This document shows positions 17,041 through 24,688 of a stretch of DNA of 64,000 nucleotides, in pieces. Position numbers and translations under genes: made by a program. The notes under the pieces are model-generated. The model saw nothing but the letters and a program-made list of their open reading frames with translations, was not told where the DNA came from and did no database searches. Positions within the stretch are counted from its first letter, which is position 1, and each line of letters begins with the position of its first letter. This DNA comes from Radicibacter daui (GTDB lineage Bacteria; Pseudomonadota; Alphaproteobacteria; Radicibacterales; Radicibacteraceae): contig CP131056.1 of the NCBI GenBank assembly GCA_030657355.1, positions 4,050,501-4,114,500 of the forward strand, written 5' to 3'.

Positions 17041-17530
17041 GCCGTTTTTTCTCGTCCTCGGTGCTGCGGCGCTGGTGCTTGGGCTGGCGGTGACCAGCCC
17101 GGCCCATGCCATGCTGAGCGGCACCATGGCACCCGCAAACAGCGACGGCTCCATGCCGACCCCGCCCTCGACCGGCATGCCGGACCTCGACGAGGTGCAG
17201 AAGCTGGTGATGGATGGCAAGTTCGAGGTGGCGCTGCCCAAGCTGGCCGTGCTGGACCAGCAACATCCCGACAACGCCGATATCAAGAACATGATCGGCT
17301 TCAGCTATCGCAAGCTCGGCCAGTACGACAAGGCGCTGGGCTATTATCTGCAGGCCCTGCAGATAAACCCCAACCATGCCGGCGCGCTGGAATATCTGGG
17401 TGAGCTTTATGTCGAAACCGGCGATGCCGACCGGGCGGCCCAGATGCTGACCCGGCTTGACGAGCTCTGCCAGCAGACCACCTGCCCGCAGCGGGACATG
17501 CTGGAAGAGGCCATCAAGAACAAGAAGTGA
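17027..17530 (+). CDS. Secreted TPR-repeat protein
   Basis: A 167-residue protein starting MTGNKPFFLVLG, with a hydrophobic signal peptide ending near SPAHA (about residue 28). Two to three tetratricopeptide repeats follow (GKFEVALPKLAVLDQQHPDNADIKNMIGFSYRKLGQYDKALGYYLQAL and a next repeat to LGELYVETGDADRAAQML), then a Cys pair near the C terminus (LCQQTTC). Such proteins act as periplasmic scaffolds. It overlaps the molybdoenzyme gene, so the two are likely one operon, and it ends at a terminator. Partner unknown. Confidence 0.85.
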   Translation: MTGNKPFFLVLGAAALVLGLAVTSPAHAMLSGTMAPANSDGSMPTPPSTGMPDLDEVQKLVMDGKFEVALPKLAVLDQQHPDNADIKNMIGFSYRKLGQYDKALGYYLQALQINPNHAGALEYLGELYVETGDADRAAQMLTRLDELCQQTTCPQRDMLEEAIKNKK

Positions 17531-17579
17531 TGCCGCAGGGCACCCGCTGCCCGCCTCGTTTCAGATCTGTAGTTTTTGC

Positions 17580-17618
17580 GAAAGCGCGCCGGAGCCCTTG
17601 CCCGGCGCGCTTTCCTTT
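17580..17618 (+). terminator. Intrinsic terminator after the TPR gene
   Basis: A 13-bp stem (GAAAGCGCGCCGG at 17580-17592 with its complement at 17602-17614) with a 9-base loop, followed by CTTTT. It closes the molybdoenzyme-TPR operon and insulates the TRAP operon downstream. Confidence 0.9.
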
Positions 17619-17687
17619 TAGGCCGCCACGAAGATCCTCCGAAAAACTGGCACGGCGCTTGCGGAGAAGCAGCCTGATCGTCACTAA

Positions 17688-17717
17688 TGCACAAAAATAT
17701 AATAATTGTGCACAATT
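17688..17717. promoter_or_regulatory. Inverted-repeat operator upstream of TRAP operon
   Basis: AATTGTGCACAATT (17704-17717) is a perfect 14-bp palindrome. A further half site TGCACAA lies at 17688-17694, facing TTGTGCA in the palindrome across an AT-rich spacer that could hold the -10 region. It lies 50-80 bases before the dctP start. The operon encodes its own GntR/FCD regulator, a family that binds short palindromes with this kind of layout, so autoregulated control by that protein is the natural reading. Confidence 0.65.
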
Positions 17718-17766
17718 TGGCGGCGGTCAGAGATCAAAGCGGATGCATTCACTCTGGGAGAGCACA

Positions 17767-18771
17767 ATGACGATGCCATCGTTCCGATCCCTGGCGGCAG
17801 GCGCCCGGGCTGCAATTCTGGGTCTGGCGCTTGTTTCTCCGGTCGCCGCGGCCCATGCCACGGAGCTGCAGATGGCCTCCGGTTATCCGGATGCCAATTT
17901 TCTGACCAAGACTGTCCGCGGCTTCATCGACGATGTCGATGCCCGCACCAAGGGCGAGCTCAAGATCACCCTCCACAACAACCAGACGCTGGTAAAGCTG
18001 CCGGATATGATCCGCGCGGTGCAAACCAACCAGGTTGCGCTCGCCGATGTGCGCCTCGGCAATTACGGCAATGTCGATCCCGTCTACGTCGTGGATGCCA
18101 TCCCCTTCCTCGCCGGTGACTATGCCTCGGCGCTGAAGCTCTGGGGGGCTTCCAAACCCTACCTCACCAAATCCTTCGCCGACCGTGGCCTGACGGTGCT
18201 GTTTGCGATGTGGAACCCGCCGCAGGGCTTCTTCAGCCAGAAGCCGCTGACCTCGGCTGAGGATTTCACCAGCTTCAAGATGCGCATCTACAGTTCCGAG
18301 ACCCGCCGGATGGGCCAGCTGCTCGGTGCCGAGCCCAAGGAAGTGCCGTTTGCCGAAGTGCCGCAGGCCTTCTCTACCGGCCTCATCAACGCGATGTTCA
18401 CCTCGCCGCAGACCGGCATCGACACCCAGGCCTGGGACTTCACCAGGAACCTGACGATGGTGGGGGCGCTCTTCACCAAGCAGCTCGTTTCCATCAACAC
18501 CGATGTCTTCAACGCCCTGCCCAGGGATCAGCAGGACGCCGTGATGGCGGCTGCCGCTGCTGCGGAGAAAAACGGCTTTGAGCTGATGAAGTCACTGGCC
18601 GAGGAGCAGCTGACGCTCATCAAGAGCAAGGGCATGGATGTCAGCGCCGCCAACCCGGCCGTCATCGAGGCCCTCAAGAATGTCGGCACGCAGATGACTG
18701 CCGACTGGAAGGAAAAGGCAACGCCCGAGCAGGTCAAGGTGCTGGACGACTACGCCGCCCTCACCAACTGA
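17767..18771 (+). CDS. dctP: TRAP transporter substrate-binding protein (DctP family)
   Basis: A 334-residue periplasmic binding protein. The signal peptide ends near VAAAHA; the mature part begins TELQMASGYPDANFLTKTVRGFIDDVDARTKGELKI, with LPDMIRAVQTNQVALADVRLG and the family hallmark PFAEVPQAFSTGLINAMFTS. It delivers substrate to the DctQM permease encoded next. GGGAG precedes the ATG at 17767; an in-frame ATG at 17743 is a weaker alternative. The downstream allantoinase- and racemase-like genes suggest a ureide or hydantoin-like substrate rather than a C4-dicarboxylate. This is inferred from context. Confidence 0.92.
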   Translation: MTMPSFRSLAAGARAAILGLALVSPVAAAHATELQMASGYPDANFLTKTVRGFIDDVDARTKGELKITLHNNQTLVKLPDMIRAVQTNQVALADVRLGNYGNVDPVYVVDAIPFLAGDYASALKLWGASKPYLTKSFADRGLTVLFAMWNPPQGFFSQKPLTSAEDFTSFKMRIYSSETRRMGQLLGAEPKEVPFAEVPQAFSTGLINAMFTSPQTGIDTQAWDFTRNLTMVGALFTKQLVSINTDVFNALPRDQQDAVMAAAAAAEKNGFELMKSLAEEQLTLIKSKGMDVSAANPAVIEALKNVGTQMTADWKEKATPEQVKVLDDYAALTN

Positions 18772-18820
18772 CCCTGCATTCCGGTTCTGACCGAAGATGA
18801 GGAGCGGCGCGCCAGCGTCG

Positions 18821-19366
18821 ATGACGGACATGAAACTGATATCCACCATCGCTGGCGTGATCGCCGCCCTGTGCATGGCGGCGATGGCGCTCCTCCTTCT
18901 GGCCGAGATCGTCCTGCGGCCCTTCGGGGTTCTGGTGCCCTCGGCCGACGATTTCACCACCTTCCTCATGATCGGGGTCGGCTTCTTCGGCTTCGTGCAT
19001 GCCTTCCATGAAGGAGCGCACGTGCGGGTGGATCTGCTCTTCCGCCACCTGCCTGCCCGCCTGCAGCACGGGTTGCAGGTCGCCAGCCTGTTTCTGGCTG
19101 CATTGCTGCTGGCCGGCCTCGCCATCGGCAGCGCCGAGATGACCTGGGCAGCCCATCGTTTTCATGACGTGACCGACACCCTGATCCCGGTGCCGATGGC
19201 CCTGCTTTTGGGCAGCGCCACGCTCGGCCTCGGTCTCTTTACCCTGCTCTGCCTGTGGTCGGTCCTCAGGAGCCTTGCCGGCGGGGCCATAACCTTCGCG
19301 GTGGGCGAAAAGGAAGAAGCCATGGCCCTTGCCCGCGCCAGCGACACCGAAGGAGAGCTGGCATGA
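18821..19366 (+). CDS. dctQ: TRAP transporter small permease (DctQ family)
   Basis: About 181 residues with four predicted membrane helices (ISTIAGVIAALCMAAMALLLLAEIVLRPF, FTTFLMIGVGFFGFVHAF, LQVASLFLAALLLAGLAIG and PMALLLGSATLGLGLFTLLCLWSVL). Between helices 2 and 3 is the charged segment HEGAHVRVDLLFRHLP, the typical DctQ loop. The start is uncertain: ATGs at 18797, 18821 and 18830 are in frame and none has an ideal ribosome site. Its stop overlaps the dctM start (ATGA), so the two membrane subunits are translated together. Confidence 0.88.
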   Translation: MTDMKLISTIAGVIAALCMAAMALLLLAEIVLRPFGVLVPSADDFTTFLMIGVGFFGFVHAFHEGAHVRVDLLFRHLPARLQHGLQVASLFLAALLLAGLAIGSAEMTWAAHRFHDVTDTLIPVPMALLLGSATLGLGLFTLLCLWSVLRSLAGGAITFAVGEKEEAMALARASDTEGELA

Positions 19367-20658
19367 GCTTCATCGCCTTCCTGGCCCTCATCCTTCTGCT
19401 GGGCATCCTGCTGGCCGCCGGCTTCTGGATCGGACTTGCCATGCTGCTCAGCGGTATTGCCGGCCTCCTTATGTTCGGTGCCCCCAACGTCACCGGCCTT
19501 GCCTCCAGCACCGTCTTCGCCGCCATCAATTCCTGGCCGCTCACAGCGCTGCCGCTCTTTCTGCTGATGGGGGAGATCCTCTCCCGCTCGCGCCTGTCGG
19601 AAGATCTCTTTCGGGGGCTATCCCCGCTGGTGCGCTGGCTGCCGGGCGGGCTGCTGCACGTCAACATTCTGGGCTGCGGGCTGCTGGCCGCCATCGTCGG
19701 CTCTTCCGGCGTGTGCTCGGCCACTGTCGGACGCATGTCGCTGCCGGAGCTGAAGCGCCGGGGTTATGACGAATCGCTTTCCATCGGCACCCTTACCGGC
19801 TCCGGCACGCTCGGGCTGCTCATCCCGCCCTCGATCATGATGATCGTCTACGGCACCGTCGGGCAGGTTTCGATCTCAAGGCTGTTTCTGGCCGGCGTGC
19901 TCCCCGGCCTCATCATGATGCTGCTTTTCATGGCCTATGTGGCGGGGCGCTCACTCCTCGCCGGACGGGGCCAGGCACCGAAGGTAAAAGACGAGCCGAC
20001 CAGCTGGCGCGATCTGCGCCGGGTGGTGCCTCCCATCGCGCTGATCCTGCTTGTCATAGGTTCGATCTATGCAGGCTTCGCGACACCAACGGAATCGGCG
20101 GCCATCGGGGTTGCCGGTGCTGTCGCCCTCGCTGCCACCGGCCGTACGCTCACCGCGCGCATGCTGACCGGCAGCCTGATGGCGGCCGTGCGCAGCACGG
20201 CGCTGATCATGTTGATCATTGCCGGCGCCGCCGTGCTGTCTGCCGCGCTCGACTATGCGCAGATCCCGCGCGCCGCCGCCGAACTTGTGGCCGAGATGCA
20301 GCTGGGCCCGGCCGCCCTCTTGCTGGCGCTCACCATCCTTTACCTCATCCTCGGCTGCTTTCTCGAAGGCGCCTCGATGATTGTACTGACGGCTGCGGTG
20401 GTGCTGCCGATGGTAAAGGCCGTGGGCATCGACACCGTGTGGTTCGGCATCTTCGTGGTGATCATGGTGGAGCTTGCTCAGATCACCCCGCCTGTCGGCT
20501 TCAACCTCTTCATCCTGCAGGCCATGACGGGCCGCGACATTGGCGTCGTCACCCGGGCCTCGATGCCGTTTTTCTTCGTGATGCTGCTGAGCGTGGCGCT
20601 GTTTGCCGCTTTCCCGCAGCTCGTCCTCTTCCTGCCCGAGCAGATGATCGGCAGATAA
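19363..20658 (+). CDS. dctM: TRAP transporter large permease (DctM family)
   Basis: A 431-residue polytopic membrane protein with about 12 helices; it forms the Na+-driven transport channel. Family signatures are present: LPLFLLMGEILSRSRLSEDLFRG, GVCSATVGRMSLPELKRRGYDESLSIGTLTGSGTLGLLIPPSIMMIVYG and VIMVELAQITPPVGFNLFILQ. The ATG overlaps the dctQ stop by 4 bases. It is followed after 25 bases by the allantoinase-like gene in the same operon. Confidence 0.93.
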   Translation: MSFIAFLALILLLGILLAAGFWIGLAMLLSGIAGLLMFGAPNVTGLASSTVFAAINSWPLTALPLFLLMGEILSRSRLSEDLFRGLSPLVRWLPGGLLHVNILGCGLLAAIVGSSGVCSATVGRMSLPELKRRGYDESLSIGTLTGSGTLGLLIPPSIMMIVYGTVGQVSISRLFLAGVLPGLIMMLLFMAYVAGRSLLAGRGQAPKVKDEPTSWRDLRRVVPPIALILLVIGSIYAGFATPTESAAIGVAGAVALAATGRTLTARMLTGSLMAAVRSTALIMLIIAGAAVLSAALDYAQIPRAAAELVAEMQLGPAALLLALTILYLILGCFLEGASMIVLTAAVVLPMVKAVGIDTVWFGIFVVIMVELAQITPPVGFNLFILQAMTGRDIGVVTRASMPFFFVMLLSVALFAAFPQLVLFLPEQMIGR

Positions 20659-20683
20659 TCCGGCGGATAACAGGTTATAAAAA

Positions 20684-21562
20684 ATGAGAGACTTTCTGGG
20701 TTACGCCAACAAGCTGCCGGATATTCGCTGGCCGGAAGGCAAGCGCATCGCCGTGTCCTTCGTGCTCAATTTCGAGGAAGGATCGGAATTCGCCATTGGC
20801 GACGGCGATGATCGCAATGAGGCGGTCTACGAGGTGATCGACCGCATCCCGACCGCCGACCCCTGCATCGAATCCCATTTCGAGTACGGCACCCGTGTCG
20901 GCTACTGGCGCATTGCCGAACTTTTCGATGCTTTCCACGGCCATATGACGGTCAGCGCCTGTGGACGGGCTGTCGAGCGCTCGCCCTGGCTGGTCCAGGA
21001 TGCCCACCGCCGCGGGCATGAAATCTCCGCCCATGGCTATCGCTGGGAAAGCCACGCCAACCTGACGGTGGAAGAGGAAAAGCGCCGCATTGAACGTACC
21101 CGCAAGGCCATTGAGGATGCCGTGGGCGAGCCGCCGGTCGGCTGGCATACCCGCTCTGCCAGCAGCCCCAACACCCGGCGCCTGCTGGTCGATGCCGGCT
21201 TTCTCTATGACAGCGACGCCTATAACGACGACACACCCTATTTCGTCGAGGTCGGCGAAAAACGGCACCTCGTGCTGCCTTATGCCTTCGACACCAACGA
21301 CATGCAGTTCCAGAACACACAGCGGCTGGCGACGGGACACGACTTCGCCGACTATGTGTGCGATGCCTTCGACTGGTTGTGGCGCGAGGGGGAGAGCATG
21401 CCGCGGATGATGTCCATCGGCCTGCACCTGCGCATGATCGGCCGGCCGGGACGCATCGGCGCGCTTGAGGCGATCCTGCAGCACATGGCCGGCAAGGGCG
21501 GTGCCTGGATCACCACACGCAGCGCCATCGCACACCATTGGCTGGCGGCAAGCCAGGGCTGA
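20684..21562 (+). CDS. PuuE-type allantoinase / polysaccharide-deacetylase-fold amidohydrolase
   Basis: A 292-residue NodB-fold hydrolase. The N terminus MRDFLGYANKLPDIRWPEGKRIAVSFVLNFEEGSE closely follows the cofactor-independent allantoinase PuuE/HpxB pattern (RDFxGYG..PxxxWP..ARIAVxFVLNYEEG). HGYRWESHANLT and TRSASSPNTRRLLVDAGFLYDSDAYNDDTPYF are also characteristic. PuuE opens the hydantoin ring of allantoin to allantoate. The neighbouring racemase and TRAP genes support a ureide role, though a close relative acting on another cyclic amide is possible. Cytosolic; length normal. Confidence 0.82.
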   Translation: MRDFLGYANKLPDIRWPEGKRIAVSFVLNFEEGSEFAIGDGDDRNEAVYEVIDRIPTADPCIESHFEYGTRVGYWRIAELFDAFHGHMTVSACGRAVERSPWLVQDAHRRGHEISAHGYRWESHANLTVEEEKRRIERTRKAIEDAVGEPPVGWHTRSASSPNTRRLLVDAGFLYDSDAYNDDTPYFVEVGEKRHLVLPYAFDTNDMQFQNTQRLATGHDFADYVCDAFDWLWREGESMPRMMSIGLHLRMIGRPGRIGALEAILQHMAGKGGAWITTRSAIAHHWLAASQG

Positions 21563-21568
21563 AACGAG

Positions 21569-22279
21569 ATGTCGAAGACCATCAGCGAAGAAGAGATCTA
21601 CACTCTCCTGTCACGCCTGCTGCTGGCCGGACAATTGCCGCCCGGCACCAAGCTGGTGGAGCAGAAGATCGCCGGGCTCTTCGGCGTTTCGCGGGAGCGG
21701 GTGCGCAAGGTTATCCACCGGCTGGGCTATGAACGCCTGCTGGATCTCGTGCCCAATCGCGGCGCCTTCGTTGTCGACCCCAGCCTTGAGGAAGCACGCC
21801 GGCTCTACGAAGCCCGGCGCATTCTGGAAGGTGGCATCGTTCTGCGCCTTGCCGACAGCTGGTCGAGCCAGCAGGACCGGATGCTGGCCGATTATATGAA
21901 GCAGGAAGAAGCAGCCGCCGCTGCCGATGATCGCCCGCTTTCCATCAAGCTTTCCGGCGGCTTTCACATGCTGCTCGCTTCCATGACCGGCAGCGATCTT
22001 ATCGAGCGCCAGATGCAGGAACTGGTGAGCCGCACGGCCATGCTGGTCGCCTTTTATGAGCCGGGCTCTGCTTCCACCTGCGGGTGCGAGGAACATCAGT
22101 CCATCGCCACCGCCCTTGGCCGGCGCGATGGCGGCGCTGCGGCGCGCTGCATGTGCACGCACCTTTCCCTCATCGAGACGCGTCTGCGCCCGGTACGCAC
22201 GGACAAGGCCGGCAGCGATCTTGAAAGCATACTCGGCCGCGAAATCGAGCTGCTGATAGCTCCGGCCAGTCCCGGCTGA
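21569..22279 (+). CDS. GntR-family (FCD-type) transcriptional regulator
   Basis: A 236-residue regulator. The winged helix at about residues 5-75 includes LPPGTKLVEQKIAGLFGVSRERVRKVIHRLGYERLLDLVPNRGAFV. The all-helical FCD ligand domain follows, with ARRLYEARRILEGGIVLRLA, FHMLLASMTG and EEHQSIATALGRRDGGAAARCMCTHLSLIE, carrying the histidines that usually hold a metal. STCGCEEH puts two extra cysteines right beside a metal-ligand histidine, which is uncommon. It sits 6 bases after the allantoinase gene. The palindrome at 17704-17717 is the likely binding site. Confidence 0.9.
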   Translation: MSKTISEEEIYTLLSRLLLAGQLPPGTKLVEQKIAGLFGVSRERVRKVIHRLGYERLLDLVPNRGAFVVDPSLEEARRLYEARRILEGGIVLRLADSWSSQQDRMLADYMKQEEAAAAADDRPLSIKLSGGFHMLLASMTGSDLIERQMQELVSRTAMLVAFYEPGSASTCGCEEHQSIATALGRRDGGAAARCMCTHLSLIETRLRPVRTDKAGSDLESILGREIELLIAPASPG

Positions 22280-22292
22280 CGAAAGCCTCCCG

Positions 22293-23012
22293 ATGCGGCT
22301 CCTGCTGATCAACCCCAACTGCTCTGCCGACATGACGGCCCGCATCGCCGACGGTGCACGCGCACGCCTTGCCCCGGATGTTGAGGTTGAAGCGATGACG
22401 GCGAGCTTTGGCGGCGACGTCATCGCCTCGCGCGCCTCCTATGCCATTGCCGGCCATGCAGCACTCGACTGCCTTGCCCGTGCCGGTGCCGGATTCGACG
22501 GCATTCTGCTGACCTGCTTCGGCGACCCGGGGCTGGAGGCACTCCGCGAGGTCAGCGGCGCTCCCGTCGCCGGCCTGCTGGAGGCCTCGCTGGAAGTCGC
22601 CTGCCGGACCGGCAAAGCCTTTGGCATCGTGACCGCCGGCGCCCTGTGGCGTGACATGCTGGAGGAGCGGATCGGCCCCACCGCCAGGCCACTCTATCGG
22701 GGCACCGAGATCCTCAATCTCAGTGGCCTTGCCATCAGCCGCGATCCGGAACTCGCCGCCCCCGCCATCGGCGCCGCTTGCCGCCAGCTGCAAGGGGCCG
22801 GCGCCGAAGTGATCATTCTGGGCGGGGCGGCGATGATCGATCTCGCGAAGAACCTGCCGCCCGACCTGCTTCTGATCGATTGCCTGTCGGCCGGGCTGAC
22901 GGCGTTGCAGGAGAGAACCAGCGCCGACACCACTACCGCACGAGCCCCGCAGAGCTTCATTAGCAGTCAGGGACTTTCCCCCGCGCTCGCCACTCTCCTT
23001 GCCGGAAACTAG
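22293..23012 (+). CDS. Asp/Glu/hydantoin racemase, probable allantoin or hydantoin racemase
   Basis: A 239-residue two-cysteine racemase. The start MRLLLINPNCSADMTARIADGAR is the hydantoin racemase N terminus. The two catalytic cysteines lie in ILLTCFGDPGLEALRE (about residue 70) and LLIDCLSAGLTAL (about 197). HpxA, the allantoin racemase of Klebsiella, and hydantoin racemase HyuE belong to this family. Beside a PuuE-type allantoinase it most likely lets both allantoin enantiomers be used. Last gene of the TRAP operon; it converges with the cyclase gene with a 5-base gap. Confidence 0.85.
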   Translation: MRLLLINPNCSADMTARIADGARARLAPDVEVEAMTASFGGDVIASRASYAIAGHAALDCLARAGAGFDGILLTCFGDPGLEALREVSGAPVAGLLEASLEVACRTGKAFGIVTAGALWRDMLEERIGPTARPLYRGTEILNLSGLAISRDPELAAPAIGAACRQLQGAGAEVIILGGAAMIDLAKNLPPDLLLIDCLSAGLTALQERTSADTTTARAPQSFISSQGLSPALATLLAGN

Positions 23013-23017
23013 ACGGC

Positions 23018-24688
23018 TCAGGCGGCGATTTCAGGCAGCAGGCTCGCTTTGGTGACAGAACGTACGGCAAGCGTTTCCGTACGCCCCCGTACGGCAACAT
23101 CATGCGCCGGATAATGCATCAGGCTGACATCGGCCCGGCTTGCCACCACCTCGCTGACGATCAGCTCCACCCCCAGTTCCTTGGTCTGGGATTCGAGCCG
23201 GCTGGCGGTATTCACCACATCGCCGATGGCGGTCAGCGTGACGGCGGTGGAATGGCCCATCTGGCCGACGATCACATGGCCCATATGAATGCCGATGCCG
23301 AAGGCCAGCGGCTCGGAAAGATCGTCGGCAAGTGACTGGTTGAGTTCTGCCAGCGCCACCGACATCGCCCGCGCCGCCTTCAGCGCGTCGCGCGCGCCCT
23401 GCTCCGGTCCCGATTGCAGGCCGAAGAGCGCCATGATCCCGTCGCCGATGAATTTGTCGATATGGCCGCCGGCATCGGTAATCGCCTCGCCCATGGTGGC
23501 GAAATAACGGTTGAGCAGGAACACGACGTCATAAGGCAGCTTCTTTTCCGACAGCTTGGTAAAACCGCGGAGATCCGCAAAGAGAATGGCAATTTCCATC
23601 TCCTGCCCGTCGCTTTTCATGCTGGCTTCACGCATCGCGCTGCGCAAATCGCCGCCCGGCTGCAGCAGCGGCATCACTTCCAGATCGCGCGTCGGCCGCA
23701 CCTGGCAGGCAAGGCGCACCCAGGGCGGCGCCGAGATGCGGCGCAGCACCTGCGCTTCCAGTGCGCTTGCCGCCGGCAGCAGGTCGCCGCCCCGCCCCAC
23801 CCGCACCCGGCAGGTAGAGCAGCGCGCCTTGCCACCGCACACCGAAGCATGCGGCACCCCGGCGGCAAGGCTCGCCTCCAGAATGGTGCCGCCGCGTGGC
23901 AGCGAGATGATGCGGCCGTCCGGATAGGTCAGGCGAATGCTTTTGCCGTGGCGCAGGATGAGCATGTGGAGGGTGCGGGCCACCAGCAGCGCGGCAAGAA
24001 TGGCAACGACCGTCAGGCGCATCTCCAGCGTTGCCTGCCGGACAAAAGCCTCCAGCGGTGCACCAGCATAGTGGATGCCGGCTGCCAGCGCCGAAATCCA
24101 GCCCGGGACTTTGGCAAGGGCAATCACATCACGGGCGCTTGCCAGATATCCGCCGGCAGCGGCAACCGGCAGCGCGACGGCAAAAGCCAGCAGCCACGGA
24201 GCCACGCCGGGCCACCAGCTTTTGGTACGCAGCCAATAACCAAGCCCGATACAGGCATGCCCCCACGCCACGAACAGCAGCGCCAGATGCAGGATCGCCT
24301 TCCACAGCGGCCCCGCCACCCAGTAGGAGGTGAGCACATAGGCATAAGTCGGCTGAAGCCCGTAACCCAGACGCCCACCGGCCGTGCTCATCAGATGTTC
24401 GGCCAGCAGCAGCGGAATGGCGATGCCGAGGCTCAGCTGCATCCATTGCCACACCGGCATGGAAAGGCGCCGCCGACGCAGGGTAATGACGAGGGCAAGC
24501 GTGAAATGGGTAAGCGCGGCAATGCCGAGCGTCGCCGTTCCGACCCAGGTCAGCCAGAACGCCATGAAGTAGGGGCGCGCGGCTTCCATTAGATCGAGCG
24601 AAATAACGCCAAGAGAATGATTTATCAGATGCCCCAGCACATAAGCAAAGAGCACTAGACCCGCTATCGAATGCACGCGCCGGAGCAT
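23018..24688 (-). CDS. Membrane cytochrome-like / 2Fe-2S ferredoxin / class III adenylate cyclase fusion
   Basis: A 556-residue three-part signalling protein. Residues 1-245 hold about six membrane helices with several histidines (H6, H20, H24, H61, H98, H134, H144), resembling succinate dehydrogenase-type b cytochromes (HSIAGLVLFAYVLGHLINHSLG). Residues 250-345 form a 2Fe-2S ferredoxin with cysteines 284, 290, 293 and 328 (CX5CX2C...C, adrenodoxin-like spacing). Residues 362-545 form a class III nucleotidyl cyclase with both metal aspartates (ILFADLRGFT, D372; IGDGIMALFG, D416), the adenine-type K412, and AIGDVVNTASRLE. It should make cAMP in response to redox or quinone state. Transcribed alone. 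Confidence 0.88.
   Translation of the reverse strand: MLRRVHSIAGLVLFAYVLGHLINHSLGVISLDLMEAARPYFMAFWLTWVGTATLGIAALTHFTLALVITLRRRRLSMPVWQWMQLSLGIAIPLLLAEHLMSTAGGRLGYGLQPTYAYVLTSYWVAGPLWKAILHLALLFVAWGHACIGLGYWLRTKSWWPGVAPWLLAFAVALPVAAAGGYLASARDVIALAKVPGWISALAAGIHYAGAPLEAFVRQATLEMRLTVVAILAALLVARTLHMLILRHGKSIRLTYPDGRIISLPRGGTILEASLAAGVPHASVCGGKARCSTCRVRVGRGGDLLPAASALEAQVLRRISAPPWVRLACQVRPTRDLEVMPLLQPGGDLRSAMREASMKSDGQEMEIAILFADLRGFTKLSEKKLPYDVVFLLNRYFATMGEAITDAGGHIDKFIGDGIMALFGLQSGPEQGARDALKAARAMSVALAELNQSLADDLSEPLAFGIGIHMGHVIVGQMGHSTAVTLTAIGDVVNTASRLESQTKELGVELIVSEVVASRADVSLMHYPAHDVAVRGRTETLAVRSVTKASLLPEIAA

Follow-up and report, generated by a model that had tools for sequence, protein, structure and literature searches.

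Wissig and colleagues are said to have described in 2019 (Mol Microbiol 112:16-28) that the adenylate cyclase CyaC of S. meliloti contains two hemes B and responds to ubiquinone. Beltz 2016 (PMC4821796) grouped enzymes of similar design, 30 class IIIb cyclases of alpha- and betaproteobacteria, into one cluster. In these a ferredoxin domain follows a six-transmembrane (6TM) anchor that resembles the cytochrome b of fumarate reductase/succinate dehydrogenase; four histidines are spaced out within the membrane part, and two hemes were predicted. According to the passages of Klein (PMC10463352) that concern CyaC and cite Wissig 2019, the 6TM domain of the S. meliloti enzyme binds two hemes B, and ubiquinone oxidizes or reduces these hemes, which affects cyclase activity. 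In a figure legend of the same paper two hemes B (distal and proximal) and a [2Fe-2S] cluster are named, with activation following oxidation by quinones, and a brief statement in PMC9552081 agrees on the diheme and the quinone response of S. meliloti CyaC.

We analyzed a stretch of 64,000 nucleotides of the Radicibacter daui genome (the window), the minus strand of which carries an intact open reading frame of 556 residues, its ATG lying right behind an in-frame TAG (Table 1). The original prediction, made from the letters and translated reading frames, had described the product, with no strand given, as a single chain joining a membrane part, a ferredoxin and a cyclase, and the reading frame, the Pfam domains and the structural model all agree with this order. 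The Fer2 and Guanylate_cyc (PF00211) matches are both above the curated Pfam cut-off, and residues 1-250 matched no Pfam family. The cysteines of the ferredoxin domain (residues 284, 290, 293 and 328) are spaced CX5CX2CX34C, just as the CX5CX2C...C pattern noted at the outset requires. The gene is a further member of the known CyaC kind, for which neither the binding of heme nor gating by redox state is a novelty. The earlier statement that these two properties are not established has to be withdrawn, since both are already published for the S. meliloti homologue, as the CyaC passages cited above relate. We assign a probability of about 0.85 to the reading that the product is a redox-responsive adenylate cyclase of the CyaC type, which reads the quinone redox state via a pair of hemes b together with a 2Fe-2S cluster and delivers cAMP as output.

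Table 1. Coordinates of the cyclase gene and its parts within the window
Feature	Position	Strand	Basis
CyaC-type adenylate cyclase, entire gene, 556 residues	23018..24688	-	full-length relatives 37-52% identical, likewise built of three such parts
Membrane anchor of six helices (residues 1-248), fold like that of fumarate-reductase cytochrome b	23945..24688	-	AlphaFold2 pLDDT 96; top PDB match 2bs4_C; weak TIGR02046 match
H20, helix I, predicted distal heme b ligand	24629..24631	-	invariant 51/51; pairing predicted from topology
H61, helix II, predicted proximal heme b ligand	24506..24508	-	invariant 51/51; pairing predicted from topology
H98, helix III, predicted distal heme b ligand	24395..24397	-	invariant 51/51; pairing predicted from topology
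H144, helix IV, predicted proximal heme b ligand	24257..24259	-	invariant 51/51; pairing predicted from topology
Fer2 (2Fe-2S ferredoxin), residues 258-333, Cys 284, 290, 293, 328	23690..23917	-	Pfam PF00111 E 3.3e-8; four Cys invariant
Ferredoxin-cyclase linker/helix, residues 345-358, probable coupling element	23615..23656	-	sole segment with pLDDT <50 in the full-length model; role putative
Class III (IIIb) cyclase domain, residues 364-538; D372, K412, D416, T486, N493, R497	23075..23599	-	Pfam PF00211 E 4.2e-21; 1wc1 TM 0.85; S. meliloti CyaC residues at +2

To delimit the residues conserved in the family, the window protein was aligned with 50 full-length relatives (37-52% identity), the set covering 12 contigs as well as genomes of the same class. 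Across these 51 sequences nine columns of the anchor are invariant, namely, H20, H61, G88, H98, W142, H144, G148, P174 and G180. Four of the nine are histidines, compared with 10 histidines among 250 residues, an enrichment that exceeds chance (hypergeometric P ~1.5e-4). The ten anchor histidines occupy positions 6, 20, 24, 61, 98, 134, 144, 206, 241 and 247; the seven counted originally have to be corrected accordingly, while the about six helices in which they were placed do appear in the AlphaFold2 model. H24 is nearly invariant (48/51). Positions 6, 134, 206, 241 and 247 are unconserved; in the relatives Arg (6 and 241) or Gln (134) mostly replaces the histidine, and residues 206 and 247 are variable. 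Non-conserved histidines in homologues had been named beforehand as an observation that would speak against a heme sensor; H20, H61, H98 and H144 turned out to be invariant in the 51 sequences, and the rest are not. This selectivity bears on a quite different role of the anchor, that of a heme-free receptor for lipids or other ligands, as in other 6TM cyclases. Among the latter, Rv1625c is reported to be under the control of lipids, which act via its membrane domain (PMC12505454). For the window protein such a role is very improbable, considering that exactly four histidines are invariant, unlike the other histidines of the anchor, and that a diheme homologue has been published (CyaC passages of PMC10463352 and PMC9552081).

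In the ferredoxin domain, H280 is invariant in the 51 sequences along with C284, C290, C293 and C328. The invariant residues of the cyclase are D372, D416 and R497, and nearly invariant are K412 (48/51), T486 (50/51), D490 (50/51) and N493 (49/51). A wider alignment of 90 rows, which includes some duplicates and truncated genes, retains the four histidines and the four cysteines, the sole absence of H20 being due to a contig end. In 18 of these 90 rows the column of the adenine-binding lysine K412 holds Gln, and therefore substrate choice or activity may vary within part of the family.

The AlphaFold2 model of residues 1-250 (pLDDT 96) consists of six long transmembrane helices. When it was compared with the PDB, the three best matches were chain C of fumarate reductase, the top one being 2bs4_C of Wolinella, and cytochrome b561 came next with low probability. 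The match to 2bs4_C is modest (probability 1.00, TM-score 0.52, Foldseek E 0.12). At the level of sequence profiles the likeness of the anchor to fumarate/succinate cytochrome b is weak (E 0.005), and against PDB chains the anchor profile retrieved nothing up to E 10; because of the latter, the link with FrdC is drawn from the fold and from weak profile matches. TIGR02046, the family of succinate dehydrogenase/fumarate reductase b558 cytochromes, likewise gave only 15.8-16.4 bits, its cut-off being 96. With a score below the cut-off and with Fer2 and a cyclase fused to it, the anchor is not a free-standing SdhC/FrdC subunit of the TIGR02046 kind; it resembles diheme SdhC/FrdC in fold without belonging to that family. 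Wolinella succinogenes FrdC (2bs4/1e7p) shares with it the fold and the presence of one heme-ligand-type histidine per helix in four helices. In contrast to FrdC, which has five helices, the anchor has six, is 18% identical, is fused to Fer2 and cyclase domains and lacks a flavoprotein partner.

The invariant histidines sit one per helix in helices I-IV. Positive charge in two loops (II-III and IV-V) and behind helix VI would place both termini in the cytoplasm. With this orientation H20 and H98 of the model appear to lie toward the periplasmic side of the membrane, and H61 and H144 toward the cytoplasmic one, which suggests a distal/proximal layout of bis-His hemes b. Most likely, the six-helix anchor holds two hemes b, the distal (periplasmic) one bound by H20/H98 and the proximal (cytoplasmic) one by H61/H144. 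Heme-based gas sensors are common, and hemes of this anchor might bind oxygen or nitric oxide instead of serving in quinone sensing. However, the four conserved histidines, one per helix, suit two six-coordinate bis-His hemes, and hemes of this type normally do not bind gases. The homologous CyaC of S. meliloti, moreover, responds to quinones, according to the CyaC passages of PMC10463352, and we regard a gas sensor as highly unlikely.

The intactness of the active site can be judged against S. meliloti CyaC, in which mutations at K410, T484, N491 and R495 remove catalysis. These sites correspond to K412, T486, N493 and R497 of the window protein. When all offsets from -60 to +60 were tried, +2 matched 4/4 of the CyaC catalytic residues and no other offset matched more than one. 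The initial impression of an active-looking cyclase is confirmed by the metal-binding residues D372 and D416 and the adenine pair K412 and T486, joined by N493 and R497. S. meliloti CyaC (SMc01818), which was compared via published residue positions, has the same order of 6TM, 2Fe-2S and class III cyclase domains, with the catalytic residues uniformly shifted by 2; the diheme-B and the quinone response are features reported for CyaC itself, in the CyaC passages of the sources cited. Unlike it, the window protein has additional, unconserved histidines at 6, 134, 206 and 241. Members of cluster 1 of Beltz 2016 (e.g. R. palustris Q132R4) also have the 6TM anchor, the four spaced histidines and the ferredoxin before the class IIIb domain; no difference from them was found, and the family is larger than the 30 sequences of that cluster. 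The soluble CyaC of Spirulina platensis (1wc1) has the class IIIb fold in common with the window cyclase domain (identity ~32%; TM-score 0.85, normalized by the length of the target), but possesses other regulatory domains and shares with rhizobial CyaC only the name.

Relatives on rhizobial plasmids are annotated as cyaCa or as adenylate/guanylate cyclase, and the four histidines are in place in those of R. phaseoli, R. leguminosarum and R. daejeonense. In plasmid pA of R. etli CIAT 652 (L197:2806-3000) the start of the annotated cyaCa, in helix I, is out of frame. The cyaCa genes of R. phaseoli and R. leguminosarum are intact, unlike this record, in which the frame shift is an indel or a sequencing error.

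How the redox signal might reach the active site can be outlined from the predicted arrangement of the domains. The diheme of the anchor would exchange electrons with ubiquinone, and the [2Fe-2S] domain, which would occupy the place taken in fumarate reductase by the docked iron-sulfur subunit, would be the next stop for the electron. The redox state of the hemes and the cluster may then act through the short segment preceding the cyclase and change how the catalytic homodimer packs; judged from homology, oxidized quinones would activate the enzyme. Residues 345-358, just N-terminal to the cyclase, are the only stretch of the full-length model with pLDDT <50. The original prediction had likewise proposed a heme-b sensor connected through a ferredoxin to cAMP synthesis. 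This core idea matches what is reported for S. meliloti CyaC, but the Fe-S cluster as the transmitter does not stand as it was worded; judged from the position of the cluster, transmission through it is plausible. In a more specific version, electrons would pass from quinol over both hemes to the [2Fe-2S] cluster, the charge of which, and not that of the hemes, would switch the cyclase. We put this forward tentatively, at less than even odds; if true, the protein would be a miniature version of the fumarate-reductase wire, with the terminal catalytic subunit swapped for a second-messenger enzyme.

Alternatively, the hemes might sense on their own, with no electrons passing from heme to cluster, and the ferredoxin would be a structural or dimerization module or the reader of a separate cytoplasmic redox signal. 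The CyaC passages of PMC10463352 do credit the hemes with making the S. meliloti homologue redox-sensitive, and the full-length model is good inside the domains but uncertain in their mutual placement (pTM 0.62). Nevertheless, we consider sensing by the hemes alone rather unlikely, as each of the cluster's four cysteines is invariant throughout the 90-row alignment and the ferredoxin domain always comes after the final helix, at the side where the proximal heme pair would lie.

In a survey of the class, 109 of the 385 sampled genomes (~28%) had a match with E 1e-60 or better; the CyaC-type architecture is therefore common and known. When 398 genomes of the phylum were searched with the anchor profile, 49 gave matches, among which a few are weak ones to other small membrane proteins. 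Full-length relatives are also present in two MAGs, labelled Spirochaetes and Leptospiraceae (L016:5980-7608 and L018:1619-3256), outside the range named in 2016, and a binning error is possible. Three membrane proteins of ~200 aa (L177:1992-2585, L178:1998-2609 and L179:1971-2609) match helices I-III of the anchor profile with E 1e-11 to 1e-12 and no curated family over its cut-off; possibly, they represent a free-standing cytochrome b-like family.

Among relatives that appear to lack the cyclase, only one is a clean case. This protein of 374 aa (L180:3644-4765, minus strand) consists of a four-His anchor and a ferredoxin followed by a stop, and the end of its gene overlaps the start of a gene for an MscS-type mechanosensitive channel (L180:1440-3644, minus strand). 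Candidates L127, L128, L129 and L130 were rejected as cyclase-less architectures, because they resemble frame breaks or contig ends; in L127 (3796-5649), a complete genome, the anchor-ferredoxin and cyclase parts are in different frames, reflecting a broken gene or a sequencing error. The natural existence of an anchor-ferredoxin protein, together with the respiratory-type fold of the anchor, would suit an enzyme engaged chiefly in electron transfer from quinol to the ferredoxin or a soluble partner, to which a cyclase has been appended. This is improbable for the window protein, the active site of which is intact; besides, the 12 other relatives in the family of the cyclase-less protein, found across 121 genomes, have open frames of 560-590 aa, leaving room for a cyclase.

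The surroundings of the gene differ from those in S. meliloti. In the CyaC-CycR-Clr system of the latter the TetR gene cycR directly precedes cyaC, whereas no TetR gene adjoins the gene in the window, and ten genes lying upstream in relatives likewise gave no match to TetR. Convergent with the window gene, positions 17527-23012 encode TRAP transporter components (DctP, DctQ and a large permease), a PuuE-like polysaccharide deacetylase/allantoinase, a GntR/FCD regulator and an Asp/Glu/hydantoin racemase, likely a catabolic cluster. Upstream and divergent lies an ABC cluster with a GldA-type ABC ATPase. A search for a conserved operon in ~30 relatives revealed no widely recurrent neighbor family, and their upstream genes are unrelated, e.g. 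methionine sulfoxide reductase, PfkB kinase, P450 and a malonate transporter subunit. Radicibacter daui is the only genome sampled from its order. It encodes seven class III cyclases and eight cyclic-nucleotide-binding domains over the cut-off, and candidate receivers of cAMP are therefore present.

On the CyaC-type reading, the gene adds another clear example of how a module of respiratory electron transfer has been turned into a sensor that serves cAMP signaling, and more than a quarter of the genomes sampled in the class carry a member of this family. The main value of the analysis is comparative, in that 51 diverse sequences pinpoint the four histidines and the four cysteines that matter. 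With these residues defined, whether heme or cluster is the switch becomes directly addressable by mutation.
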